64,000 nucleotides of DNA, from assembly GCF_030655415.1 (NCBI RefSeq), contig NZ_JAURVN010000011.1:62001-126000 (forward strand). The letters are read 5' to 3'. Shown piece by piece: positions 39,533 to 58,476 of this stretch (within the stretch, counting starts at the first letter, position 1; the number at the start of each line of letters is the position of its first letter). The translations under genes and the position numbers were made by a program. A model generated the notes under the pieces. The model was not told where the DNA came from and searched no databases. It saw nothing but the letters and a program-made list of their open reading frames with translations. The DNA comes from Herminiimonas sp. Lineage in GTDB: Bacteria > Pseudomonadota > Gammaproteobacteria > Burkholderiales > Burkholderiaceae.

Positions 39533-39823
39533 ATGTCAAATCCAACCAGCAATACCGCAACATCCGACGACGCTTTCACCCAAGAAGTGGCTAAATTGAT
39601 TGTGCATGCGCTCAATCTTGATGTCGATCCGACCACGATCAGCCCGGATGATTCACTTTACGGCAGCGGCCTTGGCCTTGATTCAATTGACATCCTGGAA
39701 GTGGCATTAGTCGTGTCAAAAAACTACGGCATTCAATTGCGCGCCGATCACGAAGATAACGAAAAAATCTTCAGCTCACTGCGCTCGCTGTCCGACTATA
39801 TTGCTGCCAATAAAACGCAATAA
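39533..39823 (+). CDS. Acyl carrier protein of the aryl polyene locus
   Basis: Carrier protein of 96 residues. The phosphopantetheine serine is Ser51 in GLGLDSIDILEVALV, followed by the typical helix and LRSLSDYIAAN end. Carriers of this type hold the starter and growing chain during polyene assembly. ATG 39533 starts MSNPTSNTATSD; the frame is open 28 codons further upstream but that part overlaps the promoter region. First gene of the operon; the AMP-ligase gene follows after 5 bases. It is the only carrier protein I can find in the locus, and no phosphopantetheinyl transferase gene is present. Confidence 0.9.
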   Translation: MSNPTSNTATSDDAFTQEVAKLIVHALNLDVDPTTISPDDSLYGSGLGLDSIDILEVALVVSKNYGIQLRADHEDNEKIFSSLRSLSDYIAANKTQ

Positions 39824-39828
39824 CTTGC

Positions 39829-41265
39829 ATGCCGCGCATTACTTGCGCTGACATCAAAGGATGCGTGCCGTTGACTTCAACTATTCCTCTTCTCAGTCAT
39901 ACCTCCCCTGACCGGATCGTCGCATGGCGCGACGGCATTTCGGTCACGGCAGCGCAATTCCTGAGCGACGTCGAAAAACTGGCCACGCTTTTGCCAGCCA
40001 GTCGTCACGTCCTCAACGACTGCCATGACCGCTATCATTTTCTTGTCGCATTTTCGGCAATCCTAGTTTCAGGCAAGGTAAACCTGCTGCCCTCGACCCG
40101 CACGGCAGAAACCATACGCCAGCTGCTGAGCTTTGCCCCTGATGCCGTGTGTCTGACCGATCAAGCGCATTGCGCAATCGACTTGCCGCGGACGGCCTAT
40201 CCGACATCCTCTTTTTTCGGCCTGGTCGGTAGCAGCGGCATTCATACCTTCCAGATTCCGCAGATCGAGAACGACCGTCTGGTGGCCTACGTATTTACGT
40301 CGGGCTCGACCGGATTACCGATAGCGCATAGGAAAACCTGGGCAACGCTGGTGCGCAATGTGCAGATGGAAGCCGTTCAACTTGGCCTGCAGCCCGACGT
40401 TAACTATAGTGTGGTCGGAACAGTGCCGGCGCAGCACATGTATGGTTTCGAGTCGACCGTATTGATGCCATTAGTGAACGGTTTTTCGCTGACCAGCGCA
40501 CTCTCGTTTTACCCGGCCGATATCTGCAGTTCGCTAGAACAAGTTCCCGAGCCGCGCGTGCTGGTGACGACGCCGGTGCATCTACGTTCGCTGATCGGCT
40601 CTGAATTACCGCTGCCAAAAATAGAAGTTATGGTGTCGGCCACAGCGCCGCTGTCGCCACAACTGGCTCTGCAGGCAGAGCAAGCCTTCCACGCTCCCTT
40701 GCAGGAAATTTACGGCAGTACCGAGACCGGACAGATTGCGAGCAGACAACCGTCGCACTCTCCAGAATGGATGCTGTTTCCAAGCTTGAAAATGACGCGT
40801 TGTCCACATCAGGATGCAAGCGACGAGCGTATGTGGATTTCCGGCGGCCACGTGGAAACACCGATGCCTATGAACGACGCCATCGAAATGACTGGTGATG
40901 GAACATTCCTGCTGCATGGCCGTATCACCGACCTGATCAACATCGCCGGTAAACGCAGTTCGCTTGCATATTTGAATCATCACTTGAATGCGATTCCGGG
41001 CGTAGTTGATGGCGCGTTCTTCATGCCACCAGAAAAAAGCACAGGCGAAGTGACTCGACTCAAGGCTTTTGTCGTCGCCCCCACACTAGCGGTCAGCGAT
41101 CTGATCGACGCCTTGCGCCAAAAGATCGATCCTGCCTTTTTGCCAAGGCCTTTGTACAAGGTCGACAGCCTGCCCCGTAACGCAACCGGCAAATTGCCGC
41201 AGGCGTCACTTGCTGAATTACTGCATACGCTGGCGGCTGCGCCATGTGATACCTCGCACAGTTGA
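39829..41265 (+). CDS. AMP-dependent aryl-acid ligase (acyl-ACP/CoA synthetase-like)
   Basis: Adenylate-forming enzyme of up to 478 residues. The P-loop is YVFTSGSTGLP, the A5-like motif IYGSTETGQIASR, and the C-terminal hinge region HGRITDLINIAGKRSS; the terminal lysine is in LPRNATGKLPQ. In aryl polyene pathways this enzyme activates the aryl starter acid and loads the carrier protein. The first ATG (39829) has no ribosome site; a TTG at 39871 with AAAGGA 9 bases upstream may be the real start, which would remove 14 residues. Its stop lies inside the next reading frame's upstream part. Confidence 0.87.
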   Translation: MPRITCADIKGCVPLTSTIPLLSHTSPDRIVAWRDGISVTAAQFLSDVEKLATLLPASRHVLNDCHDRYHFLVAFSAILVSGKVNLLPSTRTAETIRQLLSFAPDAVCLTDQAHCAIDLPRTAYPTSSFFGLVGSSGIHTFQIPQIENDRLVAYVFTSGSTGLPIAHRKTWATLVRNVQMEAVQLGLQPDVNYSVVGTVPAQHMYGFESTVLMPLVNGFSLTSALSFYPADICSSLEQVPEPRVLVTTPVHLRSLIGSELPLPKIEVMVSATAPLSPQLALQAEQAFHAPLQEIYGSTETGQIASRQPSHSPEWMLFPSLKMTRCPHQDASDERMWISGGHVETPMPMNDAIEMTGDGTFLLHGRITDLINIAGKRSSLAYLNHHLNAIPGVVDGAFFMPPEKSTGEVTRLKAFVVAPTLAVSDLIDALRQKIDPAFLPRPLYKVDSLPRNATGKLPQASLAELLHTLAAAPCDTSHS

Positions 41266-41276
41266 AGACACAATCC

Positions 41277-41567
41277 ATGACCACATTGTCGTTTCATATT
41301 CCTGCCGATCATCCGGCGTTTGCCGGGCATTTCCCCGGCATGCCGATTACCCCCGGCGTGGTTCTTCTCGACGAGGCTCTGCATGCCATAGCGGCAGACC
41401 GGCAGATGGACATGCAAAAATACAAAATCAGCAGCGTCAAATTTCTCAGTCCGGTACTGCCGGATACACAACTGAGTCTGCATTACGACATCAATGCCAA
41501 TGGCGGCATTCAATTCGATATCAAACAAGGTGAGCGCGTGGCGGTCACGGGAGTCTTCAATGCGTAA
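41277..41567 (+). CDS. Hot-dog 3-hydroxyacyl-ACP dehydratase (ApeI/FabZ-like)
   Basis: Small hot-dog fold protein of 96 residues with the FabA/FabZ-like motif HPAFAGHFPGMPITPGVVLL, whose His is the usual catalytic residue. It likely dehydrates 3-hydroxyacyl-ACP intermediates during polyene growth. ATG 41277 is chosen; a TTG at 41262 overlapping the ligase stop is also in frame. The last 8 bases overlap the LolA-like gene. The length is short compared with FabZ (about 150) but normal for this subgroup. Confidence 0.85.
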   Translation: MTTLSFHIPADHPAFAGHFPGMPITPGVVLLDEALHAIAADRQMDMQKYKISSVKFLSPVLPDTQLSLHYDINANGGIQFDIKQGERVAVTGVFNA

Positions 41568-42141
41568 ATCAACTGGCCTGCATGGCCTGATCGTTGCACT
41601 TCTGCTGTCGTGCACATGCCTGGCCCATGCGGCCGACATCACGATGGAACAATTGATGACTGGCCTGGCGCAAGCCAAACCCGCCAAGGTTAATTTCACT
41701 GAGAAAAAGTACATCGCCACATTAGATCGTCCGATTGAATCATCCGGCGAAATGCTCTTTACCCCGCCTGACAAATTGGAGAAACGTACCTTCAAGCCAA
41801 AGCCGGAAGTGATGACACTGAATCGAGACTCGGTAGTACTGGAGCGCGGCAAAAACAAGTACGCGATGCAGCTCGGCGATTCACCGGAACTGGCAGCATT
41901 GATCGAAAGTATACGGGCGACGCTGGCCGGCGACCGCCGTACATTGGAACTGAACTTCGTTGTGGCGTTGCAGGGCACGCGTGAAAACTGGACCATGATG
42001 CTGACTCCGAGCAATCTGGATGCACGTCAAAAGGTCAAACGGATTCGTCTGGCCGGCAACAACTTTGAAGTTCGCGAAATTGAAGTGCTGCAAGGCGATG
42101 GCGACCGCTCCGTGACTACCATCGAAAAAATCAAGCCATGA
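41560..42141 (+). CDS. LolA-like outer-membrane carrier protein of the polyene locus
   Basis: Periplasmic protein of about 193 residues. The signal peptide covers about residues 1-25 (MRKSTGLHGLIVALLLSCTC..., cleavage after AHA). The mature part has a LolA/LolB-like beta fold with FTEKKYIATLDRPIESSGEM and FTPPDKLEKRTFKPK. Such proteins accompany MMPL exporters in aryl polyene clusters and probably carry the lipidated pigment across the periplasm. The start overlaps the dehydratase gene by 8 bases, and the stop overlaps the MMPL start by 4 (ATGA). Confidence 0.85.
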   Translation: MRKSTGLHGLIVALLLSCTCLAHAADITMEQLMTGLAQAKPAKVNFTEKKYIATLDRPIESSGEMLFTPPDKLEKRTFKPKPEVMTLNRDSVVLERGKNKYAMQLGDSPELAALIESIRATLAGDRRTLELNFVVALQGTRENWTMMLTPSNLDARQKVKRIRLAGNNFEVREIEVLQGDGDRSVTTIEKIKP

Positions 42142-44612
42142 CGCAAACTGTGCAAGAGCTGCCAACGCCAAAACGCGCGTGGTCGGCAATCGGAATCTGG
42201 CTGGTGCTGGTATTGATCGGCATCTTCGTTCTGTTCCGCTCAACATTTACCGCTGACCTTTCCGCCTTCCTGCCTAGTAATCCGACGCAGGAACAGCAAC
42301 TGATGGTCGAGCAACTGCGCGACGGCATGGTGTCACGCCTCATTTTGGTCGGCATCGAAGGTACCGATGCGCAAGGACAAGCTGCATTGTCGAAGTCGCT
42401 TGCGACGCGGATGCGCAGCAATGATGAATTCATTTCAGTCAACAATGGCGAGCCGGTCAATCAAGACAAAGATCGCACCTATCTCTTCAACAACCGGTAT
42501 TTATTGAGTCCTGCGGTTACACCAGAACGCTTTACCACCGAAGGTTTGCACGAAGCGCTGAGCGAGACGGTAGATCTGCTGGCCTCGCCCGCCGGACTGA
42601 TAGTCAAAGACATCTTGCCGCAGGATCCGACCGGTGAACTGACGGCACTGATCGGACAGTTCAATGGCGGCCAGCAACCGCGAAAAATGCAAGGCGTATG
42701 GGTTGCAAAAGACGGCAATCGTGCTCTGCTGCTGGCGCAAACCCGCGCGCTCGGCTCCGATACCGATGGCCAGGAAGCCGCCATCAATCACATCAAAGAA
42801 AAATTCGAAGCAGCAAAAACAGAACTCGCAGCAACACTGCCACAGGTGGCCAGCGCCAAACTGGTCATGACCGGCCCCGGCGTCTTTGGCGTCAATGCAC
42901 GCAATACGATCACAACAGAAGCCGCAATGTTTTCCATCATCAGCGCGACGCTGATCATGGCCTTGCTGTTCATTGTCTATCGTTCAGGCGCAGCGGTTTT
43001 GCTTGGACTGGCACCTGTGCTCAGCGGCGTGCTGGCTGGCACAGTAGCGGTTAGTCTCGGCTTTGGCATGGTGCATGGATTGACGATGGGTTTCGGCACC
43101 ACGCTGATAGGCGAGGCCATTGATTATTCGATCTATCTGTTCATACAGTCTGGCAGCGCAAAGAACAGCGCAGACTGGGCGAAGAAATCATGGCCGACAA
43201 TTCGGCTCGGTGTATTGACCTCGATGGCCGGCTTCGGCTGCTTGTTGTTCTCAGGTTTTCCAGGACTGGCACAGCTCGGCCTGTACACCATCGCGGGTTT
43301 GACTTCCGCAGCCTTCGTCACCCGCTTCGTATTGCCGTCGCTGCTGCCGCGCAATTTCGTCGTGCGTGATCTGACACATATTGGCCTCGTCGTGCAAAAA
43401 GTACTGCATCAGTTGCAAAAGCTGCGCAAAGGATTTTTCATTATTGCGCTGGCCGCATGTGCCGTGCTTTGGGTCAATCGCGATCACCTGTGGGAGCCGG
43501 AGCTTGGCGCTTTGAGCCCTATCAGCAAAGTTGATATCGACCTTGATGAAAATCTGCGCAAGGATGTAGGCGCGCCAGACGTAAGCTACCTGATAGTCGT
43601 GAAGGGAAAAACGCTGGAAGAAGTCTTGCAGTCCACCGAAAAAGTCTCTACGCAACTCGATACCATGGTCAATGCCGGCACGCTGGCTGCATTTGAATCG
43701 CCTAGCCGCTACCTGCCGAGTCTGGCAACGCAGCAAGCTCGTCTGAATGCATTGCCGCCGACCGACGTTCTGCAGCAACGTCTGAATCAAGCAGTCGCTG
43801 GCCTGCCATTCCAGGCTACGTTGCTGGCACCGTTTGTCGCCTCCATTGATGAGCTGACGAAAGTCGCCAAACAACCGGACGAATTGAAGGCGCGACTGCT
43901 GACACGCAAGGATCTGGCCGGCACCTCGATGGCACTGGCAACCGATTCGCTGCTGATCGAGAAGGACGGCGTTGTCAGTGGTCTGCTGCCACTGACGGCA
44001 GGTGGCGATCAGCCTCTTGATATGGCACTGATCCAGACTGCGTTACAGAAATCGGGGGTGGAGCAAGCCTACTTCATTGATCTCAAAACCGAAACCGGCA
44101 AACTGTATAGCGGCTACATGCAGGAAGCCGTCATGCTGGCCTTGTGCGGATTGGTAGCAATGACGGTACTGCTTGGTTTCAATCTGCGCTCGCTTGCCGG
44201 ACTGGCGCGCGTCATGGTGCCACTGATCACTGCAGTGCTGACCGTTGCTGCGATTTTGTCGCTGACCGGCCAACGCATGACCATCCTGCATCTGGTCGGA
44301 CTGTTGCTGATCGTCGCCGTGGGTTCCAATTACGCGCTGTTCTTTGCGCAGCCGGCAACGGTACTGGTAAAGGATCCTGTAACGGGTGTTGAAACCTCGG
44401 TGGCGCAAATCAAACCGACGACACTGGCGTCACTGATCTTTGCCAATATCACCACCGTCATCGGCTTTGGTGTGCTCGGATTTTCATCCGTGCCGGTACT
44501 CAATGCGATTGGTATTACCGTCGGTATCGGCGTGATACTTGCGCTCGTCTTTTCCGCCACTTTTTCCAATAGCACGTATATCGCTGCTTCCACTGATTCG
44601 AAAGCGCCATGA
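42138..44612 (+). CDS. MMPL/RND-family lipid exporter
   Basis: Inner-membrane exporter of 824 residues made of two repeats, each with one N-terminal helix, a large periplasmic domain and a bundle of five helices. Examples are the helices IGIWLVLVLIGIFVLFRST at the start and GLVAMTVLLGFNLRSLAGL in the second half. The first bundle has the GFGTTLIGEAIDYSIYLFIQ motif and the second VAVGSNYALFFAQ, which carry the proton-relay type positions of RND proteins. It probably exports the polyene-lipid product, handing it to the LolA-like carrier. The frame overlaps its neighbours by 4 bases on each side. Confidence 0.9.
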   Translation: MTQTVQELPTPKRAWSAIGIWLVLVLIGIFVLFRSTFTADLSAFLPSNPTQEQQLMVEQLRDGMVSRLILVGIEGTDAQGQAALSKSLATRMRSNDEFISVNNGEPVNQDKDRTYLFNNRYLLSPAVTPERFTTEGLHEALSETVDLLASPAGLIVKDILPQDPTGELTALIGQFNGGQQPRKMQGVWVAKDGNRALLLAQTRALGSDTDGQEAAINHIKEKFEAAKTELAATLPQVASAKLVMTGPGVFGVNARNTITTEAAMFSIISATLIMALLFIVYRSGAAVLLGLAPVLSGVLAGTVAVSLGFGMVHGLTMGFGTTLIGEAIDYSIYLFIQSGSAKNSADWAKKSWPTIRLGVLTSMAGFGCLLFSGFPGLAQLGLYTIAGLTSAAFVTRFVLPSLLPRNFVVRDLTHIGLVVQKVLHQLQKLRKGFFIIALAACAVLWVNRDHLWEPELGALSPISKVDIDLDENLRKDVGAPDVSYLIVVKGKTLEEVLQSTEKVSTQLDTMVNAGTLAAFESPSRYLPSLATQQARLNALPPTDVLQQRLNQAVAGLPFQATLLAPFVASIDELTKVAKQPDELKARLLTRKDLAGTSMALATDSLLIEKDGVVSGLLPLTAGGDQPLDMALIQTALQKSGVEQAYFIDLKTETGKLYSGYMQEAVMLALCGLVAMTVLLGFNLRSLAGLARVMVPLITAVLTVAAILSLTGQRMTILHLVGLLLIVAVGSNYALFFAQPATVLVKDPVTGVETSVAQIKPTTLASLIFANITTVIGFGVLGFSSVPVLNAIGITVGIGVILALVFSATFSNSTYIAASTDSKAP

Positions 44613-45340
44613 GCAACGACGCGATGAACCATCTTTTTACTGCAGCCTGCAGTCCTTACCGCCAAGCCGGTCGCTTCGCGTGGCATTTTGCACATGGCAA
44701 ACTGAGTCGCGATCCGGTATTCAAGGGCATGCTCCAGCTGGGACTATTACCAAGCGGCCATCCTATCAAGGTGCTGGATATTGGTTGTGGACAAGGACTG
44801 CTGTCGTCATGGCTGCTGTCAGCCGAGGCGCAACATGCAAAAGGCGACTGGCCAATCGGCTGGCCCGCGCCACCAGTGATCACGCATGTGCATGGCATCG
44901 AATTAATGCCGCGGGATGTGGAGCGTGCCGAACGCGCATTACAGTCTGTGGCAGACCGCGCCACATTTGAAGTCGGCAATATGTGTACCGCCACTTTCGC
45001 GCCATCGGATGCGGTTGTCATCCTTGATGTGCTGCATTACGTGGACTTCCCGGCGCAAGATGACGTGCTGAAAAAAGTACATGCGTGCCTGTCACCAGAC
45101 GGCGTGCTGTTACTGCGCGTCGGCGATGCTGCCGGTGGTTTGCCATTCAAGATCAGCAACTGGGTCGACAATGTCGTGACCTCGATACGCGGCCATAAAA
45201 CACTGCCGACTTTTTGCCGGACCATCGCTGACTGGCAACGTGATATCACGGCCATCGGCTTTGCCGTTCAAGCAATTCCGATGAACGTGGGAACGCCTTT
45301 CGCCAATATCCTGCTGGTCTGCAAAAAAGGCGCCGCGTGA
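44609..45340 (+). CDS. Class I SAM-dependent methyltransferase of the polyene locus
   Basis: Soluble methyltransferase of 243 residues. SAM motif I is KVLDIGCGQGLLSSWLL, preceded by a short basic N-terminus, and the acidic motif II region is VVILDVLHYVDF. Neither a transmembrane helix nor a signal peptide is present. In related clusters methyltransferases modify the aryl ring or the hydroxyl; the site here cannot be told. It overlaps both neighbours by 4 bases, so it is a fixed member of the operon. Confidence 0.85.
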   Translation: MSNDAMNHLFTAACSPYRQAGRFAWHFAHGKLSRDPVFKGMLQLGLLPSGHPIKVLDIGCGQGLLSSWLLSAEAQHAKGDWPIGWPAPPVITHVHGIELMPRDVERAERALQSVADRATFEVGNMCTATFAPSDAVVILDVLHYVDFPAQDDVLKKVHACLSPDGVLLLRVGDAAGGLPFKISNWVDNVVTSIRGHKTLPTFCRTIADWQRDITAIGFAVQAIPMNVGTPFANILLVCKKGAA

Positions 45341-45825
45341 ACATAGATCGCAACTGGATCCTTGCGCATATCCCGCATCAGGGCAGCATGTGCCTGCTGG
45401 ATCATGTCGAATCATGGGACAGTGAACGCATGAGCGCGATTGCGCACAGCCATTTACAGATGGACAATCCCTTGCGCGCACATGACCGACTCGGTGCAGC
45501 CAACGGTATTGAATACGCTGCTCAGGCAATGGCCGTACACAGCGCATTGCTGGCAACGTCGCAGCCCGACATGCAAGACATGGCGCGTCCGACTGCAGGA
45601 TTTCTTGCCAGCGTGCGTAGTACGGTATTACATGTAGCTAGGCTGGATGACATCGCCGAGGCGTTGCAGATTGAAGTGACCTGCACGCATAGCGAGCCAA
45701 ATCTCATTTTGTATCAGTTTGCAGTGCGCGGCCTCGACACTCAGCAGCCTTTGCTGGACGGTCGCGCCACCATCATCATCGACGCATCGCTGGTCACCAA
45801 CAACACAGGAGCAAACCCATCATGA
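45337..45825 (+). CDS. Hot-dog 3-hydroxyacyl-ACP dehydratase (ApeP-like)
   Basis: Protein of 162 residues with a hot-dog fold and the motif ILAHIPHQGSMCLLDHVESW, which carries the histidine of the ApeP-like dehydratase group; a helix NGIEYAAQAMAVHSALL follows. It is the second dehydratase of the locus and probably partners with the first at different stages or chain lengths. The start is GTG, overlapping the methyltransferase stop by 4 bases, and the end overlaps the reductase by 4 bases. Confidence 0.85.
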   Translation: MNIDRNWILAHIPHQGSMCLLDHVESWDSERMSAIAHSHLQMDNPLRAHDRLGAANGIEYAAQAMAVHSALLATSQPDMQDMARPTAGFLASVRSTVLHVARLDDIAEALQIEVTCTHSEPNLILYQFAVRGLDTQQPLLDGRATIIIDASLVTNNTGANPS

Positions 45826-46541
45826 AACGCGCACTGGTAACGGGTGGCAGCGGCGGCATCGGCGCTGCAATCTGCAAGCGCTTGGCCGCAGACGAATTGC
45901 ATGTGATCGTGCATGCCAATCGCGGACGCGACAAGGCCGAGCTGATTTGCAAAGAAATTATTGCTGCAGGCGGCAGTGCGGAAGTGGCGGTATTCGATAT
46001 CACAGATGCTGACGCGACCAAAATTGCGTTGGAAGCATTGTTGGAATCAGGTCCTATCCAGGTACTGGTGAACAATGCCGGCATCCATTCCGACGCGGTC
46101 TTTCCGGGCATGACAAGTACTCAGTGGCATGATGTGATTGATGTATCGCTGCATGGTTTTTTCAATGTGACGCAACCGCTGACGATGCCGATGATACGTA
46201 CCCGCTGGGGCCGCATCATTAATGTCTCGTCGATTGCTGCGGTGACCGGCAATCGCGGCCAGGTTAATTATTCGGCGGCCAAGGGTGCGCTGCATTCCGC
46301 AACAAAATCACTGGCACTCGAACTGGCCAGTCGCGGCATCACAGTCAATGCGGTGGCACCGGGCATCATCGCCACAGGCATGATAGAAGAAGCGTTTGAC
46401 GACAAGGCGATCCAGACCATCGTGCCGATGAAACGCGCGGGAAAACCGGAAGAAGTCGCAGACCTGATCGGCTTCCTGGCGTCACCCAACTCCGCTTATA
46501 TTTCCGGCCAGATCATCTCGATCAACGGCGGCATGATCTAG
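45822..46541 (+). CDS. 3-ketoacyl-ACP reductase (FabG-like)
   Basis: Short-chain dehydrogenase of 239 residues. The NADPH motif is VTGGSGGIGAAIC, NNAG is present, and the catalytic Ser137, Tyr150 and Lys154 are in INVSSIAAVTG and NYSAAKGAL. The C-terminus SPNSAYISGQIISINGGMI matches FabG. It reduces the 3-keto group after each condensation. It is the last gene of the plus-strand operon, 4-base overlap with the dehydratase, and is followed by a strong terminator. Confidence 0.92.
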   Translation: MKRALVTGGSGGIGAAICKRLAADELHVIVHANRGRDKAELICKEIIAAGGSAEVAVFDITDADATKIALEALLESGPIQVLVNNAGIHSDAVFPGMTSTQWHDVIDVSLHGFFNVTQPLTMPMIRTRWGRIINVSSIAAVTGNRGQVNYSAAKGALHSATKSLALELASRGITVNAVAPGIIATGMIEEAFDDKAIQTIVPMKRAGKPEEVADLIGFLASPNSAYISGQIISINGGMI

Positions 46542-46561
46542 CTTCTTATTAAGTACAAATG

Positions 46562-46589
46562 AAAAGGGCCGCTGATGCGGCCCTTTTTT
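46562..46589. terminator. Convergent terminator after the ketoreductase gene
   Basis: AAAAGGGCCGC and GCGGCCCTTTT form the stem with a TGAT loop, followed by further T residues. It lies between convergent genes and can serve both. The minus-strand flavoprotein gene ends at its edge. Confidence 0.88.
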
Positions 46590-49937: not shown

Positions 49938-50561
49938 TTATTGAAAGCCGCGTTCAGTTTTGTCGTATTCAATTACGGTCAGGCCGCTGCCATCATTCAC
50001 GCCTATCGCATACGCACCCGCGCCACCGGAGAAAGTCAGGCGACCCACGCCCTTGTAATAAAAGATCGTTTCATAGCGGCCCGATCCAAAATAGAAAGGG
50101 ATCCAGGCTTTGCCTGTGATGTGTGAATTGGTATCGGTCGGGGTACCGGCAATACTGATGACTTCGTTCAAGCCCATGCCGATCTTGAGACCACTGAATT
50201 TGCCTTTGACAGGCGTGCCGATAATCTGGCCGGACCAGTCGTTGATACCTTTGACTTCTTGCGGTTTGCCGTTTGAAGCAGTGGCTGGTGCTGGAGTTGG
50301 TGCCGATGCAGCTTCCTGCTGTGCTTTTTTCTCGGCTGCTGCAGCTTGCTGCGCTGCCTTGCGATCTTCCGCATCTTTTTTGGCTTGTGCCTTTGGACCA
50401 AGTTTTTTCTGTGGCGCAGCCGGCTTGGCTGGCGCCGCTACAACTGGCGCTGGGGCGGGAGTCGCCTTGACTTCGGGTGCTGGCGCGGCTTCCTTCTTCT
50501 GCATGGTTTCACAACCGGCAAGCAACACTATGACGGCCGCAACCGTGATCAGTTTTTTCAT
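49938..50561 (-). CDS. BamE/SmpA-like lipoprotein with a long Ala/Pro/Lys linker
   Basis: Outer-membrane lipoprotein of about 207 residues. The lipobox LLAGC gives Cys17 as the acylated residue (MKKLITVAAVIVLLAGC). A long low-complexity linker (about 25-105) of Ala, Pro, Gln and Lys follows, then a small domain with GLKIGMGLNEVISIAGTPTD and AWIPFYFGSGRYETIFYYKG that resembles the SmpA/OmlA (BamE) fold. The role is unknown; a cell-envelope scaffold is likely. ATG 50561 has AAGGGGAG in a good position. It is last in the minus-strand unit after the chain-length factor, and may or may not belong to the pathway. Confidence 0.78.
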   Translation of the reverse strand: MKKLITVAAVIVLLAGCETMQKKEAAPAPEVKATPAPAPVVAAPAKPAAPQKKLGPKAQAKKDAEDRKAAQQAAAAEKKAQQEAASAPTPAPATASNGKPQEVKGINDWSGQIIGTPVKGKFSGLKIGMGLNEVISIAGTPTDTNSHITGKAWIPFYFGSGRYETIFYYKGVGRLTFSGGAGAYAIGVNDGSGLTVIEYDKTERGFQ

Positions 50562-50626
50562 TATTCTCTCCCCTTCAATCATTTAAAAATTGGCATGTGG
50601 TCGGCATGAATACGCTGCCAGCATGC

Positions 50627-51433
50627 TCAAGCTGCGACAAATTTTACGCGAAGCGACTGTTGATTGACATATTCCAGATAAATATCCGCAGCCGCGGCCT
50701 GCTCCGGAAGTTGCGCCAAGACCTGCATCAACGGTAACCCGCGCGCAGCGGGAATGCCGACACGAACGTTTTCCAGCTCGCTGCTTTCCATCGTGGTCGA
50801 AGGTGTTTTTTCCAGACTGACATCGATGGCGGTGATGCTGCCTTGTGTCACATCAGGCGTCAGCAAAATGCTGATGGCGAACTGGTCAGCGACAGGGCGC
50901 ACACCATGAATAGGTTCCGGATAAGGCGTATCGTAGACCACCAGCAAAACCGGCCGCTTTTCGACAGAGCACTGCACTGCGGCTTCCAGCAAACCAACGG
51001 CAAAGCCCGCGTCATAGGCACACAGGCTGGTTGATGGCAGCATCGCGCCGCTCGCAATCCCCCAATAACCCGACGGTGCGTTATGCACGGAATTATGAAA
51101 ACGTGTCGGCGAAATCATGCGATCGCTGCTGGCAAGTGCTTCGCAGATGAGATGACAGTTTTCACCGTCGCCACCAGACGAGCAAAATACTGTCGTCATG
51201 CTGCTCGGATCGATGCCGGCGGCAGCCAACGCTTCGAGTCCGCTGGCCAGCGCGATCTTGACGCCGATACCGACGCGACGGCGTTCGGCACTAGGCAATA
51301 CATTCAATACAGGATTGACAGTGCGCGCAGGCTGATAGGCAACTTCCTTGCGCAAAATGCTGCGCCATTCCGGCCAGTTGTTGGCACCAGGACCGATTGC
51401 ACCTATCGCTTCGATATAGACCTTGACGCTCAT
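50627..51433 (-). CDS. Beta-ketoacyl synthase chain-length factor
   Basis: Ketosynthase-like partner of 268 residues, much shorter than the ketosynthase (396). It has the N-terminal KS fold, the motif RFHNSVHNAPSGYWGIASGA and a cysteine at Cys138 (TSLCAYDAG) near the place of the KS cysteine, but lacks the two catalytic histidine motifs because the C-terminal half is missing. This matches the chain-length-factor subunit of aryl polyene synthases, which pairs with the KS. The start overlaps the KS stop by 4 bases, so the two subunits are made together. Confidence 0.85.
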   Translation of the reverse strand: MSVKVYIEAIGAIGPGANNWPEWRSILRKEVAYQPARTVNPVLNVLPSAERRRVGIGVKIALASGLEALAAAGIDPSSMTTVFCSSGGDGENCHLICEALASSDRMISPTRFHNSVHNAPSGYWGIASGAMLPSTSLCAYDAGFAVGLLEAAVQCSVEKRPVLLVVYDTPYPEPIHGVRPVADQFAISILLTPDVTQGSITAIDVSLEKTPSTTMESSELENVRVGIPAARGLPLMQVLAQLPEQAAAADIYLEYVNQQSLRVKFVAA

Positions 51434-52620
51434 GACACGATTCCCAACACCAGGCTGCAGTTGGAACCGCCAAAGCCGAATGAATTATTGACTGCGTAAT
51501 GAATGGAGCCGGCTCGATTGGCCAGCACGTAATCGACATCCAGCGCGCTATCCACCTTGGTAGTGTTGATCCCTGCTGGCGTCACGCCGTGCTGCATCGC
51601 CATCACGCAAATGATGGCCTCGACGCCGCCCGCTGCACCCAGCGTATGGCCGGTTGCGCCCTTGGTAGAGCTGCACGCGGTGCTATTGCCGAATACAGCG
51701 TGAACCGCTTTACCCTCTGCCGCATCATTACTTGGTGTAGCAGTGCCATGCAGATTGATATAGCCAATCTGATCCGGCTGAATCCCGGCCGCAGCAAGCG
51801 CCGCCTTCATGGCCATTTGTGCGCCCATGCCTTCCGGATGCGGCGATGACATGTGATGCGCATCGCTGGATTCGCCGACGCCGTGCAACAGGATCGTACC
51901 GGCAGCCGACAACGATGTTGGCTTGCTCAGCAAAACGAAGGCCGCGCCCTCAGCAATCGATATGCCATTGCGTCCTTCGCCATACGGTTGCGCTGGCGTC
52001 GGTGCCAGCAATTGCAGGGAATTGAAACCGTAAAGCGTCGTCAGACACAAGCTGTCCACACCACCCACGACCGCGGCATCGATCAATCCGGCTTCTATCA
52101 TGCGAGCAGCATTGCCGAATACCTTGGCACTGGAAGAACATGCCGATGAAACCGTCAACGCCGGACCGGTCAGGCCAAGAAAGGCACTGACATAGGCTGC
52201 GACAGAATAAGTATTATGTGTTTCGGCGTAATGAAAATCGGCTGGCAGCGCGCCATCCTGCTGACGCTGTCGATATGCCAGCTCCGTCTGCAAGATGCCA
52301 GAGGTACTGGTGCCGAGAAAAAGACCAACCCGATCCGAACCGTACTGTGCGATGGCATCGTTGACAGCATCGACAAAACCATCCTGCTGCAAGGCTAGAT
52401 GGGCAAGGCGGTTATTACGGCAATCGAATCTCGACAAGTTTTTCGGCAGGAGCACATCGTCCACGCCATCCACTTCGCCGATGAAAGTGGGCAAGTCGAC
52501 TGTCTCGAAATCGCAAGGCTTTAATCCTCCCTGCTGAGTCGATAATTTCTTCCAGTTAGCCTCCAGGCCCAAACCCAGGCAGGTGCTTAATGTGTATTTT
52601 TTTAGTTCAAGGGTTTGCAT
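51430..52620 (-). CDS. Beta-ketoacyl-ACP synthase of the aryl polyene pathway
   Basis: Condensing enzyme of 396 residues. The catalytic triad is complete: Cys161 in TVSSACSSSAKV, His291 in INLHGTATPSNDAAE, and His325 in GATGHTLGAAGG. It extends the aryl starter by repeated decarboxylative condensation, in a heterodimer with the chain-length factor encoded just downstream (type II PKS-like). Its start is ATG 52620; the upstream gene is 64 bases away. It belongs to the minus-strand operon. Confidence 0.93.
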   Translation of the reverse strand: MQTLELKKYTLSTCLGLGLEANWKKLSTQQGGLKPCDFETVDLPTFIGEVDGVDDVLLPKNLSRFDCRNNRLAHLALQQDGFVDAVNDAIAQYGSDRVGLFLGTSTSGILQTELAYRQRQQDGALPADFHYAETHNTYSVAAYVSAFLGLTGPALTVSSACSSSAKVFGNAARMIEAGLIDAAVVGGVDSLCLTTLYGFNSLQLLAPTPAQPYGEGRNGISIAEGAAFVLLSKPTSLSAAGTILLHGVGESSDAHHMSSPHPEGMGAQMAMKAALAAAGIQPDQIGYINLHGTATPSNDAAEGKAVHAVFGNSTACSSTKGATGHTLGAAGGVEAIICVMAMQHGVTPAGINTTKVDSALDVDYVLANRAGSIHYAVNNSFGFGGSNCSLVLGIVS

Positions 52621-52684: not shown

Positions 52685-53515
52685 TCAACCGCGCATACCT
52701 TCTTCCAGCCTAACGAACTGCAGATTCTGTTTCGTGTATGCCGCGACCAGTTGCGGCAGCACATCCAGAATCACAGGACGGCCATCACTACCTGGTGCCG
52801 CATTGCCATCATGGAGCAGCAAAATATCCCCGGGACCGGCATTTTTCAGCAAACGCTGCGCCACTTTCTGCGCATCACCTACCCGCGTATCGAATCCACG
52901 ACGGGTCCAGCTGACTAGTCGAAGGTCGAGCTGGTGTAACACTGGATCAAGAAAAGGATTTCGTAAACCGGCAGGTGCGCGGAAAAATAGCGGCTTTCTT
53001 CCTGTTACCTCTTCAATGACCTGTTGAGCGGCAGCAAGTTCCTTTTTGATGCCATTCAATCCGAGGATGGAAAAATAATGCCGGTGCACCATGCTGTGAT
53101 TTTCGATGTGATGACCTTCCGCGATCATTCTGCGCGCCAGTTCTGGATGATTTTTGACCTTGGTGGCAATGCAGAAGAACGTGGCCTTTATGCCATGCTC
53201 TTTCAATACATCCAGCACCTGCGGCGTGATCTCTGGATCAGGGCCATCGTCGATGGTCAGTGCAATCTCGCGGCGCCCACCGGGCAGGCGCAGGGTATTC
53301 GGTCCCAGCAAAGTACTCTTGGGCCATAGTCCGGCTGCCGTTAACACAACGTGATTAGCAATCAGCGCTGCAATACAAACGAAAACCGTTTCTGGCCACA
53401 ACAATGTCGACGCAGCTGCGCCTACATGAATGGCAGCGGATGCCTTGATAAAACTGCTGGGCTGCCACTTTGCAGGCCTGATCATGGTTGCATCGTTCAC
53501 GTTATCTCTATTCAA
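52685..53515 (-). CDS. Polysaccharide deacetylase-like (NodB homology) protein
   Basis: Protein of 276 residues with a hydrophobic N-terminal half (two helices, about residues 25-65) and a NodB domain (about 75-265). Motifs are ALTIDDGPDPEITP with the metal Asp pair and HHIENHSMVHRHY with the two metal histidines; a late LLLHDGN is present. So it is a membrane-anchored carbohydrate esterase-type enzyme. A role in removing an N-acetyl group from the sugar head of the pigment glycolipid is possible. The first start is TTG 53515, overlapping the flavoprotein stop by 4 bases; ATG 53485 (codon 11) is also possible. Confidence 0.82.
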   Translation of the reverse strand: MNRDNVNDATMIRPAKWQPSSFIKASAAIHVGAAASTLLWPETVFVCIAALIANHVVLTAAGLWPKSTLLGPNTLRLPGGRREIALTIDDGPDPEITPQVLDVLKEHGIKATFFCIATKVKNHPELARRMIAEGHHIENHSMVHRHYFSILGLNGIKKELAAAQQVIEEVTGRKPLFFRAPAGLRNPFLDPVLHQLDLRLVSWTRRGFDTRVGDAQKVAQRLLKNAGPGDILLLHDGNAAPGSDGRPVILDVLPQLVAAYTKQNLQFVRLEEGMRG

Positions 53516-55158
53516 TAGGCTGCGTTGGAGAACAGCATAGGCGCCTTGCCGCCATATGGCGCCTGCAACATGTCATCGAGTACGCGCTTCAATTCCACGC
53601 CCTCTGCCGACGTGGCAAGGCCATGATGCTCGCCGCATGCGCGTGCAAGCATTGCATCCGCCAGTTGCTGCAACAAGAGGAAATTATCTGCCATGCGCTG
53701 CGCGAAACCGGCGTCATCCAGCTGATCCTTCAAGCCGCGATTCAATTCGGAAAACCAGTCGATCTCGGTCTGGTCCAGCAGCTGTGACGGATTGCGCTTC
53801 TGGCTGACCTTGCCCCATGCACGGAAAAAATTCTGCATGGCGATATTGATTTTTTGAACTTGCATCAGCGGCTTGTGCAGACGTCCCATGGTCGACACGT
53901 CGACTAGACGATTCTGGATAAACAACGGGCACATGATGCCCCAGTAATAAGCGTAATCCCACGACACCTTGTGCGGCAATACTTCAGGATCACCAAACAG
54001 CGCGTATTGATCTACATAGACCGACAGCGTGGTCTCATACATCGAAAAGAAAATTTGCTGATAAAAATCGGCATACATCGCCACCGGCGCCTTGTTGCGG
54101 TCATGCGCAATCAGTTCGGTGATGTAAGTATTACCTATCGCGATGAAGTCGCTACCGGGCGAATAGAACGGATCAAGGAACAGGCCTGCTTCGCCAGTCA
54201 ATGCCCAGCGGTTATCGCCCGAGAAGACCTGCTTGCAACCATATGAAAAGCGTTTGAAGAAGGCGAAATCCTGCAGCTTGTCGCGCTCACCTTCCAGATG
54301 ATCGAACAGGCGCGGCTGATGAATCTTCAGCCAGTCCATCGCCTTTTCGAAGGTATTCATGTTTTCAACTGGATGCATGGTGGCATCTGCCACGATGCCG
54401 ACCGAATGCGAGCCGGATGCCAGTGGAATCAACCATACCCAGTAGCCTTCACCGACCAGGTGGTTGGTGGACAGCCAGCGATTCGGCGGATTGCAGGATT
54501 CCAACCAGTCCTTGTCTTCAGACCAATCGTGAATGTCGATGCGGCTGCCGATACGGAACCAGACCGCGCCCGCGTTATGGCCATTTTCTTGGGCCAGATC
54601 GAGTTTGCGTTTGATAAGTCCGGCGCGACCCGATGCATCAATCAACCAGCGCGCACTCGCATGCACCGTCTGTTTGTCGGATTCGTAATTGACCTGATGC
54701 AAGGCATCGCCTTCTCCGATCGAAAACTGGCGAATCACGGCGTCGTCGACAAACTGTACGCCTGCATCCAAAGCCAGATTCGCCAACTTGTTTTCAAAAA
54801 TGCCGCGATCAATCTGATACGTAAACGTCGGCAGGATTTTGCTGCCGCCGAGTTCTGTGACCTTGTCGAAATCGCGACGTCCTTCGGAAAAGAAAAAACG
54901 GAAGCCGAATTTTTTCAGCTGCTCGGTTTGCATGTGCTCCTTGAGGCCGAGCACAGTATCAAAATAATGGGCGCCAATTTCGACCGATGATTCACCGACC
55001 TTGTGCGCTGCCAGTGGCACAGGATGGGAACGACGCTCGATGACGAGAATCGACAGATCGCTAAAGCGCTTCTTGAGTTGCAAGGACAGCGTCAGACCAG
55101 CCAATCCCCCACCCATGATGACGACATCATACTGCCGGGAATTGGTGATATCAGTCAT
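53512..55158 (-). CDS. FAD-dependent halogenase-like monooxygenase 2
   Basis: Flavoprotein of about 548 residues, longer than the other one by about 100. The FAD motif is DVVIMGGGLAGLTLSLQLKK, and the segment KVGESSVEIGAHYF takes the place of the GESLLP site. The halogenase signature WxWxIP is present as WVWLIP in EGYWVWLIPLASG. A C-terminal extension of about 150 residues follows. It shares the halogenase-like fold but diverges from the first, so the two could act on different sites or one could be an oxidase. ATG 55158 has AGGAA and overlaps the acyltransferase stop by 4 bases. Within the minus-strand operon. Confidence 0.82.
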   Translation of the reverse strand: MTDITNSRQYDVVIMGGGLAGLTLSLQLKKRFSDLSILVIERRSHPVPLAAHKVGESSVEIGAHYFDTVLGLKEHMQTEQLKKFGFRFFFSEGRRDFDKVTELGGSKILPTFTYQIDRGIFENKLANLALDAGVQFVDDAVIRQFSIGEGDALHQVNYESDKQTVHASARWLIDASGRAGLIKRKLDLAQENGHNAGAVWFRIGSRIDIHDWSEDKDWLESCNPPNRWLSTNHLVGEGYWVWLIPLASGSHSVGIVADATMHPVENMNTFEKAMDWLKIHQPRLFDHLEGERDKLQDFAFFKRFSYGCKQVFSGDNRWALTGEAGLFLDPFYSPGSDFIAIGNTYITELIAHDRNKAPVAMYADFYQQIFFSMYETTLSVYVDQYALFGDPEVLPHKVSWDYAYYWGIMCPLFIQNRLVDVSTMGRLHKPLMQVQKINIAMQNFFRAWGKVSQKRNPSQLLDQTEIDWFSELNRGLKDQLDDAGFAQRMADNFLLLQQLADAMLARACGEHHGLATSAEGVELKRVLDDMLQAPYGGKAPMLFSNAAY

Positions 55159-56066
55159 CGTGCATTTCCTTGCCAAAAATCGTAAAAATTGAACCAGTTA
55201 TACGGTGCGAGGCGGGCAAAATGTTCCAGCCGACCTACATACGCAATGATCGCGGCATCAATTGCCTGCTGCGAATTGCGACGCTCACCGTTTTCGTCAT
55301 CGCTGAAATCGGCAATTTTCTCAATATTGATTTCATATCGATTACCGCCGCGATACATACCGACCATCAGGAACACCGGCCTGCGCATCATGGCGGCCAT
55401 CCGGAACGGCCCCACTGCAAAATATGCGGTTTCACCCAAGAAGGTAATCGGGAAGTTACGTTCATGACCAAGCGTACGATCGGCCAGAATGCCGATGATG
55501 CCGCCTTCTGCCAACCTGTCCTTGACCGTCAACATGGCACTTAAGTTTCCCAAAGGGACAATTTCCTGCTGTGCTTGCGGATTAATCGCAGCCATTAGCG
55601 CACCGATCTTGCGCGCATTTTCTTCATACATCAGCAATACAAGTTTGAGCTCTTCCCGCTTGCGGGACACCAACCTGACCGCCTCAAAACTACCCATGTG
55701 AGCGCCCATGACAAAAACTCCTCCTGCACGCTCTGCATCGGTCTGGTCTTCGTAATCATCGCGCAACACTTGGATGTCGAATAAATCAGCGCGATTGAGT
55801 AGAAAATAAACACGATCCAGCAGAACACCCGCGAAAACAAGGAAGTGTTTGAATATTTCGTGCCAGCGCGGCTTGCGGCCAAGCACACGCGATAGATACG
55901 CTGCCGACGCCTTGCGCGAATCGGCGACCACAATAAAAAAATACAGTGAAATCGGATACAGCAACAGGCGCGTCGCACGTCTGCCAAACAAGGTTGCCAT
56001 CTTCACCATGAAGCGCAGCAGCCCGATGGAGCCGCGCTCCTTCTTTTCAGTCCAGTCCTGCGACAT
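55155..56066 (-). CDS. LpxL/HtrB-type acyltransferase of the polyene locus
   Basis: Membrane acyltransferase of about 303 residues. The HxxxxE catalytic motif is HMGSFE in VMGAHMGSFEAVRL, and an N-terminal hydrophobic segment (ATRLLLYPISLYFFIVVADS) anchors it. The family moves acyl groups to lipids; in aryl polyene clusters an enzyme of this type attaches the polyene to its lipid anchor. ATG 56066 (MSQDWTEKK) with AAGGGAAAA upstream fits; an earlier ATG 15 codons up is less likely. It precedes the flavoprotein by a 4-base overlap. Confidence 0.85.
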   Translation of the reverse strand: MSQDWTEKKERGSIGLLRFMVKMATLFGRRATRLLLYPISLYFFIVVADSRKASAAYLSRVLGRKPRWHEIFKHFLVFAGVLLDRVYFLLNRADLFDIQVLRDDYEDQTDAERAGGVFVMGAHMGSFEAVRLVSRKREELKLVLLMYEENARKIGALMAAINPQAQQEIVPLGNLSAMLTVKDRLAEGGIIGILADRTLGHERNFPITFLGETAYFAVGPFRMAAMMRRPVFLMVGMYRGGNRYEINIEKIADFSDDENGERRNSQQAIDAAIIAYVGRLEHFARLAPYNWFNFYDFWQGNAR

Positions 56067-56138
56067 AAAATTTGTTTTCCCTTGTAGTGACATTTTTACT
56101 GATATTTTCAAGCGCCGGATTATATAGACGAGAAGGTT

Positions 56139-56807
56139 TCAGACCTTGTTTTTGCTATTGAAATAAGCGGACACGCTTTCCTTGATCGTCGCATGCTTGA
56201 AATCGGGATTGACCCGTTTCCTGCAGAAATATTCTCCGACAAACATCAGGATAACCAGCGGCCAGTTCAGAATATTGGCAAATACCGACCATGTTTCGAT
56301 CGACGCCACATAAAAAATCAGCAACGAAACCAGCAACTGCATGGCGAAGAAAATGGCCCATGCAGCAGTTACGGTACGCGTATAGCGCACCACATCATCC
56401 GGCATGTCTGGATGTATCGTACGAGCCAGAGTAGTAATGATTGGTGTACGTCCCACAAGCAACGTCTGCGCAAAAAACCAGCACAGCATCGTATTGCAGG
56501 CGATATGCTGAATCAGATAAATCCAGTCCAGCCGTACCAGCAGCGTCGACCATAATGCGATCGTGATGCACGTCAGCACCACACCTACCGTCAGTCCTGC
56601 CACCAGCCTCACCATGGCATTGCTGATGACTTGCTTCAGCGCCGCAGCCGTGCCCCAAGCGGCGATACCAATAATCGGCACCACCAGCATGAAGACAGCA
56701 ATCTGCCGCCAGATGCTTTGTGCGTCCTGCACCATCAGGGCGACGTGACTCAGCGATACATAGACGATGATTGCGGCAACGAATAACAGTGTTTTTACAA
56801 ACGGCAT
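56139..56807 (-). CDS. Polytopic membrane protein of the polyene locus (COG4648-like)
   Basis: Membrane protein of 222 residues with about six hydrophobic segments, from FVAAIIVYVSLSHVALMV to VFANILNWPLVILMFVGEYF. A proline-bearing MPDDVVRYTRTVTAAW loop and a C-terminal KNKV tail are visible. It resembles uncharacterised COG4648-type membrane proteins that recur in aryl polyene and xanthomonadin loci. No enzyme motif is seen. Its role might be in lipid-linked transport or in organising the membrane complex. The gene lies between the GT2 and the acyltransferase genes, with gaps of 85 and 72 bases. Confidence 0.78.
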   Translation of the reverse strand: MPFVKTLLFVAAIIVYVSLSHVALMVQDAQSIWRQIAVFMLVVPIIGIAAWGTAAALKQVISNAMVRLVAGLTVGVVLTCITIALWSTLLVRLDWIYLIQHIACNTMLCWFFAQTLLVGRTPIITTLARTIHPDMPDDVVRYTRTVTAAWAIFFAMQLLVSLLIFYVASIETWSVFANILNWPLVILMFVGEYFCRKRVNPDFKHATIKESVSAYFNSKNKV

Positions 56808-56892
56808 GGCTACTTCGCTTTACAAAATCATCGTTGTTGGTGAGCAGCAAAAACCTGCGTGAAAAACTGTTTGATGGCAGTTCGGCACGGGA

Positions 56893-57651
56893 TCATCGCG
56901 CAGTCAGTTTGCGCGCAAGCAGAATCGGCAGCCGAACAAGAAAACCAAAAAATAGCCGTGTATGCATCCATGTCAGCAGCTTGTTGTCGCGCCAGTAGTT
57001 GAAGTGGGAGACGCCACCTTCATCAGCATTAAGGTACTTGACCTTGGCCGGCACATTGATGGGCTTGACGCCATACCAGCATAGGCGCACCACTGCTTCC
57101 GGATCGAAATCAAAACGTCGCATCCAGTGATGCGAACGCATGATGTCCACCAACGGTCCGATCGGGTAGACGCGAAAGCCAAACAACGAATCGCCTATGC
57201 CAGCCCAGCAGGTTTCCAGATTGGCCCACCAGTTCGAAATCTTGCGTCCCTTAACCCGCAAGCTGGGTGCGCTGGCATCGAATACCGGTACGCCGAGCAC
57301 CATCGCTGCAGGACTCGCGATCGATTTTTCCATGAAGAGCGGAATCATTGTCGCGTCATGCTGGCCATCCGAATCCATCGTCAGAATATGCGTGTAACCC
57401 TGCTGTGCGGCCAGCTCCATCCCGCGCAAAACTGCCGCGCCTTTGCCGCCATTCTTCGGCAACAACACGACATGCAAACCGTCATCCTGCTCTGCCATAC
57501 GCTGCAATTCAGCGGCAGATCCGTCGGTACTACCATCGACGACGACCCACACCGGATTCCACTGCTGCCTGGCCGACTGCACGGTTGCATAAACGGTACT
57601 GCCCGGGTTGTAGCTCGGGATCAGCACCAGATGCGTTGAAGAAACTTGCAT
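56893..57651 (-). CDS. Family 2 glycosyltransferase of the polyene locus
   Basis: GT-A fold enzyme of 252 residues. N-terminal VLIPSYNPGSTVYATVQSA and the GGKGAAVLRGM segment are family-typical; the metal-binding motif is DSDGQHD. The C-terminal HWMRRFDFDPEAVVRLCWYG is the usual acceptor side. Neither TM helix nor signal is obvious. It may transfer a sugar to the aryl polyene or its lipid. It follows the PlsC-like gene by 21 bases. Confidence 0.86.
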   Translation of the reverse strand: MQVSSTHLVLIPSYNPGSTVYATVQSARQQWNPVWVVVDGSTDGSAAELQRMAEQDDGLHVVLLPKNGGKGAAVLRGMELAAQQGYTHILTMDSDGQHDATMIPLFMEKSIASPAAMVLGVPVFDASAPSLRVKGRKISNWWANLETCWAGIGDSLFGFRVYPIGPLVDIMRSHHWMRRFDFDPEAVVRLCWYGVKPINVPAKVKYLNADEGGVSHFNYWRDNKLLTWMHTRLFFGFLVRLPILLARKLTAR

Positions 57652-57672
57652 GAAGAAAAATCCTGAAAATGA

Positions 57673-58476
57673 TTAATGTTGCGCTTCAATCGATGCGCAG
57701 CAATTGGGTTCGGTGCTTGCAGGTTGTCGCGCGGTAGACAACTCTTGCTCAAAATATTCCTGCATCTCGGCGATCAGGTTTTTGACGTTCGATGTCGGGG
57801 AAAAACGTCGCCCGACGCGCACGCGAAAATGGACAGGAAATTCCGGCACCCGATAAATGGGCCAGCCCTTGCCTAAAAATCCGGAATCGGATTCGATCAA
57901 TATTGTCTGAACATCGGAGCCGGTTCGCTTGGCGATCACCGCAACTGTTCCCTGGAATTCATTGACCGTTGCATTACGTGTACGCGTCCCTTCCGGAAAC
58001 AGTAGCAACTGGCTGCCGATACTCAGTTCTTGTCCTGCGATATTCACGATATCGCGTATCGATTTATTCGGAATGTAACCGGCCATTTTTGCGCCATGCC
58101 CAAATAACACGTTCTTCAGAACCTGCTCTTTCATGATGCACACCACATTGGACAGACGTGACGTAATCAACAAAGCGTCCAGCAGCGAGGGATGATTACA
58201 GGCGAGGATGATGCCGCGGTCGTTCAGCAAGGCATCAATTTCGGAAAGATCCAGATGAAGGATATTCAATGACTGCAAGACACTGAAATACATGCGAAAC
58301 GTATGTGTAATCGCATTGCGTGCATTCTGCTTGCGCTGATCAGACGGCAAGACCAGTGAATACAGAAGCAGTCCGATCGAACCGGCAATCATGACGGCGC
58401 CCAGCAGCAACAGTCCAAACAGAAGGATCAGGAAATTATGCGCATTCTGAAGTCGTTTTTTTAACAGGTGCATCAT
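57673..58476 (-). CDS. PlsC-like lysophospholipid acyltransferase of the polyene locus
   Basis: Acyltransferase of 267 residues. The NHxxxxD motif reads ILACNHPSLLDALLI and the acceptor motif FPEGTRTRNA; an N-terminal membrane helix (FLILLFGLLLLGAVMIAGSIG) precedes them. It belongs to the 1-acylglycerol-3-phosphate acyltransferase superfamily. In the context of a polyene cluster it probably builds the lipid tail or acylates the head group. It is the promoter-proximal gene of the minus-strand operon; no convincing promoter is visible in the 480 bases upstream. Both ATG codons at 58476 and 58473 are possible. Confidence 0.86.
   Translation of the reverse strand: MMHLLKKRLQNAHNFLILLFGLLLLGAVMIAGSIGLLLYSLVLPSDQRKQNARNAITHTFRMYFSVLQSLNILHLDLSEIDALLNDRGIILACNHPSLLDALLITSRLSNVVCIMKEQVLKNVLFGHGAKMAGYIPNKSIRDIVNIAGQELSIGSQLLLFPEGTRTRNATVNEFQGTVAVIAKRTGSDVQTILIESDSGFLGKGWPIYRVPEFPVHFRVRVGRRFSPTSNVKNLIAEMQEYFEQELSTARQPASTEPNCCASIEAQH

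Follow-up and report, generated by a model that had tools for sequence, protein, structure and literature searches.

Gene content and layout of the locus

The stretch of DNA analysed here (the window; 64,000 bases of a betaproteobacterial chromosome, 52.3% G+C) carries an aryl polyene locus at positions 39533-58476, recognised by profile searches, sequence matches to chains of the Protein Data Bank (PDB) and catalytic motifs. A plus-strand block (39533-46541) converges on a minus-strand block (46589-58476) across a gap of 47 bases, and within the minus block one gene, chor (48857-49852), is on the plus strand. A preliminary description of this DNA had spoken of two opposed operons; the convergent blocks are there, while the plus-strand chor makes the phrase only approximate. 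It had also described plus-strand overlaps of 4 or 8 bases from the dehydratase gene at 41277 onward, which proved exact: dh1 and lolA overlap by 8 bases (41560-41567), and lolA/mmpl, mmpl/mt, mt/dh2 and dh2/kr by 4 bases each. The 8-base overlap requires a lolA start at 41560, the longest lolA open reading frame (ORF) beginning at 41494. An in-frame ATG also lies upstream of the acp start, at 39449, and the ATG start of fad1 is probably 47917. In the list below, counterparts among the arc genes of Azoarcus sp. BH72 were assigned by annotation and gene order against Table 1 of PMC3949708, and not by sequence comparison.

39533..39823, plus: acp, acyl carrier protein (ACP), 96 amino acids (aa); NCBIfam NF006617 137 bits, PP-binding; GLDSID serine motif
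39829..41265, plus: lig, aryl-acid adenosine monophosphate (AMP) ligase, arcT counterpart; PF00501 3.6e-20; TSGSTG, GKLP
41277..41567, plus: dh1, short hot-dog dehydratase, ApeI-like; PF07977, PF22818; 3esi_A 8.9e-6, 6qsr_A 0.0016; GHFPG
41560..42141, plus: lolA, LolA-like periplasmic carrier; PF19574 7.9e-24; NF053544 (flexirubin LolA2) below its cutoff
42138..44612, plus: mmpl, MMPL/RND exporter, 824 aa; PF03176 1.2e-12
44609..45340, plus: mt, S-adenosylmethionine methyltransferase, proposed O-methyltransferase for the ring hydroxyl; PF13649 and related
45337..45825, plus: dh2, second hot-dog dehydratase, ApeP-like; profile A2 to 6qsr_B, E 2.7e-7; PHQG
45822..46541, plus: kr, FabG-type ketoreductase (KR); NF004200 365 bits; YSAAK
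46562..46587, no strand: terminator-like stem between the convergent blocks; 11 pairs, flanking A-run and T-run; consensus match only
46589..47932, minus: fad1, flavin-halogenase-fold protein in arcA position; PDB matches 5buk (Mpy16), 3e1t (CndH), PltA; WFWFIP, Lys82
47983..48738, minus: abh, lipoprotein-like alpha/beta hydrolase in arcO position; weak PF12146/PF12697, below cutoffs; GISLGG; lipobox-like start
48857..49852, plus: chor, FkbO/Hyg5-family chorismatase, arcB/XanB2 counterpart; TIGR04444 2.5e-66, 224 bits against a cutoff of 325; PF21168 above cutoff
49938..50582, minus: x214, small lipoprotein; weak OsmE match, below cutoff; not found at several relatives' loci
50627..51433, minus: clf, truncated chain-length factor (CLF); PF13723 3.9e-29; profile A4 to 6qsp_B, 8.2e-23
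51430..52620, minus: ks, polyene ketosynthase (KS); NF006618 540 bits; CSSS, HGTAT, GATGH
52685..53515, minus: pda, polysaccharide deacetylase family, arcN counterpart; PF01522 8.8e-33; DDGPD, HIENH
53512..55176, minus: fad2, flavin-halogenase-fold protein; ATG start 55158
55155..56111, minus: lat, LpxL-type acyltransferase; PF03279 2.6e-7; HMGSFE
56139..56807, minus: x222, membrane protein in arcU position; no Pfam family; kept in the five closest loci
56893..57651, minus: gt, GT2 glycosyltransferase; PF00535 3.7e-20
57673..58476, minus: plsC, PlsC-type acyltransferase, arcD counterpart; PF01553 8.9e-14; PEGTR

A complete core with its own chorismatase

The locus holds every core part of a type II pathway: an ACP, an AMP ligase, a KS with a half-size CLF, a KR and two hot-dog dehydratases, together with the LolA-like protein, the MMPL exporter, acyltransferases and a GT2 enzyme for anchoring and export. 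The gene classes named in the preliminary description (ACP, ligase, MMPL, LolA-like carrier, methyltransferase, KR, KS, truncated CLF, GT2) were all recovered by family matches, and its two acyltransferases by PF03279 and PF01553. Its two dehydratases were likewise found, the one at 41277 through a FabA/ApeI-like match; dh2, at 45337, had no significant Pfam match, and a 12-sequence profile led to 6qsr_B, the next PDB chain scoring 0.16. We take 6qsr to be the aryl polyene ApeI-ApeP complex and 6qsp the ApeO-ApeC complex, although their PDB names do not say so. Catalytic motifs are intact in the KS, ACP, KR, ligase, dehydratases, methyltransferase, deacetylase and acyltransferases, and the set is kept in relatives. 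The locus is a complete one. A chance arrangement of unrelated genes was rejected, since the same genes recur together in relatives.

Seven genes had not been listed before: chor, fad1, fad2, pda, the lipoprotein hydrolase gene abh, x214 and x222. The most telling of them are chor, fad1 and fad2. The chor product has SGTAS and D-x-C-R in common with PDB chain 5ag3_A, both invariant in 10 aligned sequences; with these Hyg5-like residues it appears to be a chorismatase of the XanB2/Hyg5 kind and would be expected to make 3-hydroxybenzoate. For the CLF, the Q166 rule of Lysobacter was dropped: the glutamine of LEAAVQC in the window protein is not invariant in 11 aligned CLFs, and Q166 could not be placed.

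Two flavoproteins of the halogenase fold

Both flavoproteins have GxGxxG, WxWxIP, a conserved lysine and the halogenase fold, motifs that are not proof of activity; the fad1 model has a predicted local distance difference test score (pLDDT) of only 72. The WxWxIP residues and the aligned lysine, presumably the catalytic one, are invariant in 29 fad2 and 9 fad1 proteins, and halogenases head the fold and sequence matches, with the flavoprotein 3nix also near the top. These observations count against the strongest rival to a halogenated product, namely that the two proteins act as flavin hydroxylases or desaturase-like oxidases and that the pigment is methylated and free of halogen. We regard that rival as less likely than not, yet it has points in its favour: the fold is also found in hydroxylases, fad1 scores well, though below cutoff, on the model of the monooxygenase QhpG, and the arc pigment, arcuflavin, has a non-brominated aryl heptaene as its polyene despite the presence of arcA (PMC3949708). 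Since that pigment lacks bromine despite a fad1-type gene, fad1 may not be a halogenase, and the simple claim that two halogenases make two bromines was kept only within the tentative decoration-unit reading given below.

Position appears to separate the two proteins. In the window fad2 is on the same strand as ks with one gene, pda, between them, so that a halogenase-fold gene stands close to the KS-CLF pair. Among the best 80 of 554 fad2 matches, the CLF gene ends no more than 1.5 kb upstream of fad2 in 68 loci, the KS preceding the CLF in 65; in at least 3 of the 68 (L031, L063, L068) dh2 and kr lie between CLF and fad2. According to a figure legend of the Lysobacter paper (Fig. 5), halogenase genes flank the KS-CLF pair in selected clusters except those of Lysobacter and Xylella, and the Lysobacter pigment is non-brominated (PMC3691225). 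The cassava Xanthomonas paper describes a xanthomonadin cluster with a halogenase and XanB1, a putative reductase/halogenase (PMC3838355). Over these three pigments, the presence of bromine goes more closely with the halogenase linked to the KS than with that linked to the chorismatase. By placement, and not by Xanthomonas or Azoarcus sequence, fad2 would be of the KS-linked type and fad1 of the chorismatase-linked type. We thus hold fad2 to be the likelier halogenase of the two and predict fad1 to be a partner of methylation.

Xanthomonadin I carries bromine on both ring and chain. In the available parts of the xanthomonadin literature, the link between halogenase and bromination rests on gene presence, no enzyme assay or gene deletion being found there, and the arcuflavin paper (PMC3949708) was the only one found to join xanthomonadin, a methyltransferase and bromination. 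As separate observations, many loci of Variovorax and related genomes (L008-L080, e.g. L020, L045) have KS, CLF and fad2 apart from the other polyene genes; in the three such genomes checked (G004, G006, G012) the ligase is on a different contig, like the two-locus arc arrangement. Some genomes (L025, L032, L083/L085) have, besides the KS-CLF pair of the core operon, a second and more divergent pair next to fad2.

Nested distribution of the tailoring genes

The distribution of these genes was followed in 145 genomes from the family of Oxalicibacterium faecigallinarum (G001), where absences are soft as some genomes are fragmentary. The ligase was found in 24 genomes (E up to 1e-40), the CLF in 24 (1e-15), fad1 in 19 (1e-60), the methyltransferase in 14 (1e-15), the chorismatase in 13 (1e-25) and fad2 in 6 (1e-60). 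The CLF set differs from the ligase set in four genomes, G020 and G094 being gained and G036 and G085 missing. We counted as polyene genomes those with a ligase plus G020, whose ligase is cut at a contig end, which gives 25. All 19 fad1 genomes and all 13 chorismatase genomes fall within these 25, all 14 methyltransferase genomes within the 19 with fad1 (the matches in G020 and G061 being weak, 41 and 37% identity), and five of the six fad2 genomes within the 14. The remaining fad2 genome, G028, matches at 40% only and is without a ligase. Among the 25 polyene genomes, the tailoring genes are thus nested, fad2 within the methyltransferase and the methyltransferase within fad1 (fad1 by methyltransferase, Fisher's test, p = 0.0026, uncorrected for kinship). 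With 5 of 25 genomes positive, fad2 was rejected as a general marker of the pathway.

In a second sample, 24 fad2 genomes picked from the 80 fad2 loci kept as the best of 554 matches, none titled as a metagenome-assembled genome, 22 have fad1 (1e-40) and 21 the methyltransferase (1e-15). The nesting is not universal, as Peristeroidobacter and Steroidobacter (L040, L044) lack both fad1 and mt and Tahibacter (L078) has fad1 only. Ligase or KS matches with one internal stop codon (G005:C165, G022:C166, G008:C3) possibly represent broken or misassembled genes.

A sister genome without the tailoring genes

Upstream of the window locus are ilvA- and queF-like genes and downstream ptsN-, hprK- and rapZ-like genes, which is ordinary chromosome. 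In genome G124 the cluster (L081) sits between queF and a 312-aa ORF occupying the place of hprK; its core is at the same chromosomal site as that of the window. This locus retains acp, lig, dh1, lolA, mmpl, dh2, kr, abh, chor, clf, ks, pda, lat, x222 and gt and lacks mt, fad1, fad2, plsC and x214, with mmpl and dh2 overlapping directly by ATGA. A permissive tblastn search (E up to 10) of L081 and L089 gave no remnants of the five genes, only two chance-level x214 hits. Genome-wide, fad1 and fad2 (1e-60) and mt (1e-15) were not found in G124 either, while the absence of plsC and x214 applies to the locus only; x214 is also absent from the G002 and G003 loci.

For a tree, 12 core proteins of the window and of 14 genomes were concatenated, 11 of the 25 polyene genomes being omitted, mainly as fragmentary. 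G124 and the window come out as a pair in it, with an ultrafast bootstrap of 100. When the tree is rooted at its midpoint, the two fall within a clade that also holds G001, G002, G109 and G003, four genomes that all carry mt, fad1, fad2 and plsC; loss in G124, from separate places, is therefore the simplest reading. The preliminary description had credited the strain with its own set of tailoring genes, a claim that can now be put more sharply: mt, fad1 and fad2 vary in a nested way among relatives and all three are absent from G124.

The closest fad2 relatives bearing a genus name are from Oxalicibacterium, a betaproteobacterium of the Oxalobacteraceae, and Keguizhuia. Oxalicibacterium flavum and O. 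faecigallinarum have the same set of genes as the window. No usable literature on yellow colour in Oxalicibacterium was found among the part of the relevant papers available. Promoter-like sites in the window (13) do not exceed the mean for shuffled sequence (16.8), and none was used. The stem between kr and fad1 was retained for its length and place and not for the count, since terminator-like sites number 29 in the window against a shuffle mean of 22.0 (sd 5.0). Elsewhere in the window, at 32133-36131, lies a 1332-aa fusion of DUF3683, FAD-linked oxidase, 4Fe-4S, cysteine-rich and DUF3400 domains.

Proposed pathway and its alternatives

Taking into consideration the gene identities, motifs, fold classes, gene order and tailoring co-variation observed, we propose that the locus is a xanthomonadin-type aryl polyene cluster, of the kind that makes yellow membrane pigments, a reading to which, with the pathway that follows, we give a probability of about 0.85. 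The chorismatase would convert chorismate to 3-hydroxybenzoate, which the AMP ligase would load onto the carrier protein, and the KS-CLF, the KR and the dh1/dh2 pair would extend this starter into a conjugated aryl polyene. The methyltransferase may cap the ring hydroxyl, halogenation of the pigment is probably due to fad2, and fad1 may perform a second flavoprotein step linked to methylation. Acyltransferases and glycosyltransferase would attach the polyene acid to a lipid, and the MMPL exporter and LolA-like protein would carry the pigment to the outer membrane. The label "xanthomonadin/flexirubin-like" had been used for this DNA; its first half stands, as a xanthomonadin/arcuflavin type, by the chorismatase in the locus and the match to arc in function and order, while the flexirubin type is disfavoured, a chorismatase being present and no sign of dar genes having been seen among 46 window ORFs or beside two KASIII-type genes examined in relatives. 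In gene functions and their order, the locus is the arc set with fad2 and the small lipoprotein added.

It is this likeness that sustains the next alternative, a pigment of the arcuflavin or flexirubin type. The polyene acid would then form an ester with a dialkylresorcinol, and the dar genes for the latter would lie at another place in the genome. The gene sets match save for fad2, x214 and a few genes found only in arc, the arc product is a dialkylresorcinol hybrid with its dar genes at a separate locus (PMC3949708), and our view covers 64 kb of the genome. No dialkylresorcinol-type or dar-like family was seen among the 46 window ORFs scanned. DarB, we assume, belongs to the KASIII Pfam family, which was counted in five close relatives: G001, G002 and G003 have two such proteins each, G109 and G124 one each. 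The extra copy is in a sugar-type operon in G001 and is type III polyketide synthase (PKS)-like in G003, neither beside dar-like genes. What was seen in the relatives, with these two copies examined, hints at an absence of darA and darB, and we consider a dialkylresorcinol ester improbable. Two gene rows were noticed besides: in Oxalicibacterium (L122:1179-7693) a FabH-like synthase is joined with genes for a Rieske oxygenase, a short-chain dehydrogenase/reductase, a hexapeptide acetyltransferase and a sugar aminotransferase-like protein, and in Keguizhuia (L123:3210-7806) a type III PKS-like protein, a weak PRK06202 match, a flavoprotein and a FabF-like KS stand in a row, possibly a small separate aromatic pathway.

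The five genes missing from the G124 locus might hint at a cluster that has gone silent or is decaying in the present lineage, with no pigment made. We think this very unlikely, given that the listed ORFs are open, the checked motifs intact and the 12 compared core proteins conserved, with 53-87% identity to those of the five closest genomes.

Within the xanthomonadin-type reading, we put forward tentatively, and with more doubt than belief, that mt, fad1 and fad2 act together as one functional unit for decoration, acquired step by step in the order fad1, methyltransferase, fad2 and lost together. Here fad1 would prepare or halogenate the ring phenol before methylation and fad2 would halogenate the polyene while it is bound to KS-CLF. 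The pigment would be methoxylated and possibly dihalogenated, and G124 would make a bare phenol polyene. If true, this would tell which genes account for the 0, 1 or 2 bromines found in xanthomonadins. The kind of cluster is itself known; what is new is the comparative evidence, that is, the nested tailoring genes and the pair formed by the window and G124, and we see in the tailoring pattern a modest, testable advance. The two form a natural gene-loss pair: site and core are the same, and the methyltransferase and the two flavoproteins are present in one and missing from the other. Should pigment be made by both, their comparison would tell directly what mt, fad1 and fad2 do, and it bears on which enzyme brominates xanthomonadins.

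Comparison with known systems

The dh2 and CLF profiles of the window match 6qsr and 6qsp, the entries taken above as aryl polyene complexes. The aryl polyene cluster of Escherichia coli CFT073 has the same core logic and the same anchoring and export parts as the window, and the main text of the paper on it does not contain the word halogenase (PMC8253772). The Lysobacter enzymogenes cluster shares with the window a KS with CSSS and a half-size CLF (ORF17/16), an ACP, a KR, two dehydratases, a XanB2 homologue, a LolA-like carrier, exporters and a gene of the dolichyl-phosphate mannose synthase type; unlike the window, it has no halogenase gene reported in the part of the paper available, and its product is non-brominated (PMC3691225). 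The pig/xan clusters of Xanthomonas, a different lineage, have in common with the window a halogenase gene, XanB1, XanB2, an AMP ligase, an ACP, a dehydratase, acyltransferases, a membrane protein and an exporter, a likeness drawn from gene descriptions (PMC3838355, PMC3691225).

The arc genes of Azoarcus offer a counterpart for nearly every gene: arcV (acp), arcT (lig), arcS (dh1), arcQ (lolA), arcP (mmpl), arcM (mt), arcI (dh2), arcH (kr), arcK (ks), arcJ (clf), arcN (pda), arcR (lat), arcE (gt), arcD (plsC), arcB (chor) and arcA (fad1), and, by position only, arcO (abh) and arcU (x222), which are unannotated there. Without a counterpart are fad2 and x214; conversely, arcC, arcF, arcG, arcL, the regulators arcW/arcX and the dar genes were not recognised at the window locus, which is a single locus where arc has two. 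In Azoarcus, insertions in arcK or arcT each abolished the pigment and left the strains colourless, and feeding identified 3-hydroxybenzoate as the head, 4-fluoro-3-hydroxybenzoate and the methyl group of methionine both labelling the pigment (PMC3949708). 3-Methoxybenzoate was a poor substrate of ArcT, so that methylation would come after activation (PMC3949708). In two relatives, G151 and G110, the genes run acp-x222-lig-dh1-lat-lolA-mmpl-abh-pda-mt / ks-clf-dh2-kr / gt-plsC-chor-fad1, which is the order of the arc loci once the extra arc genes are set aside.

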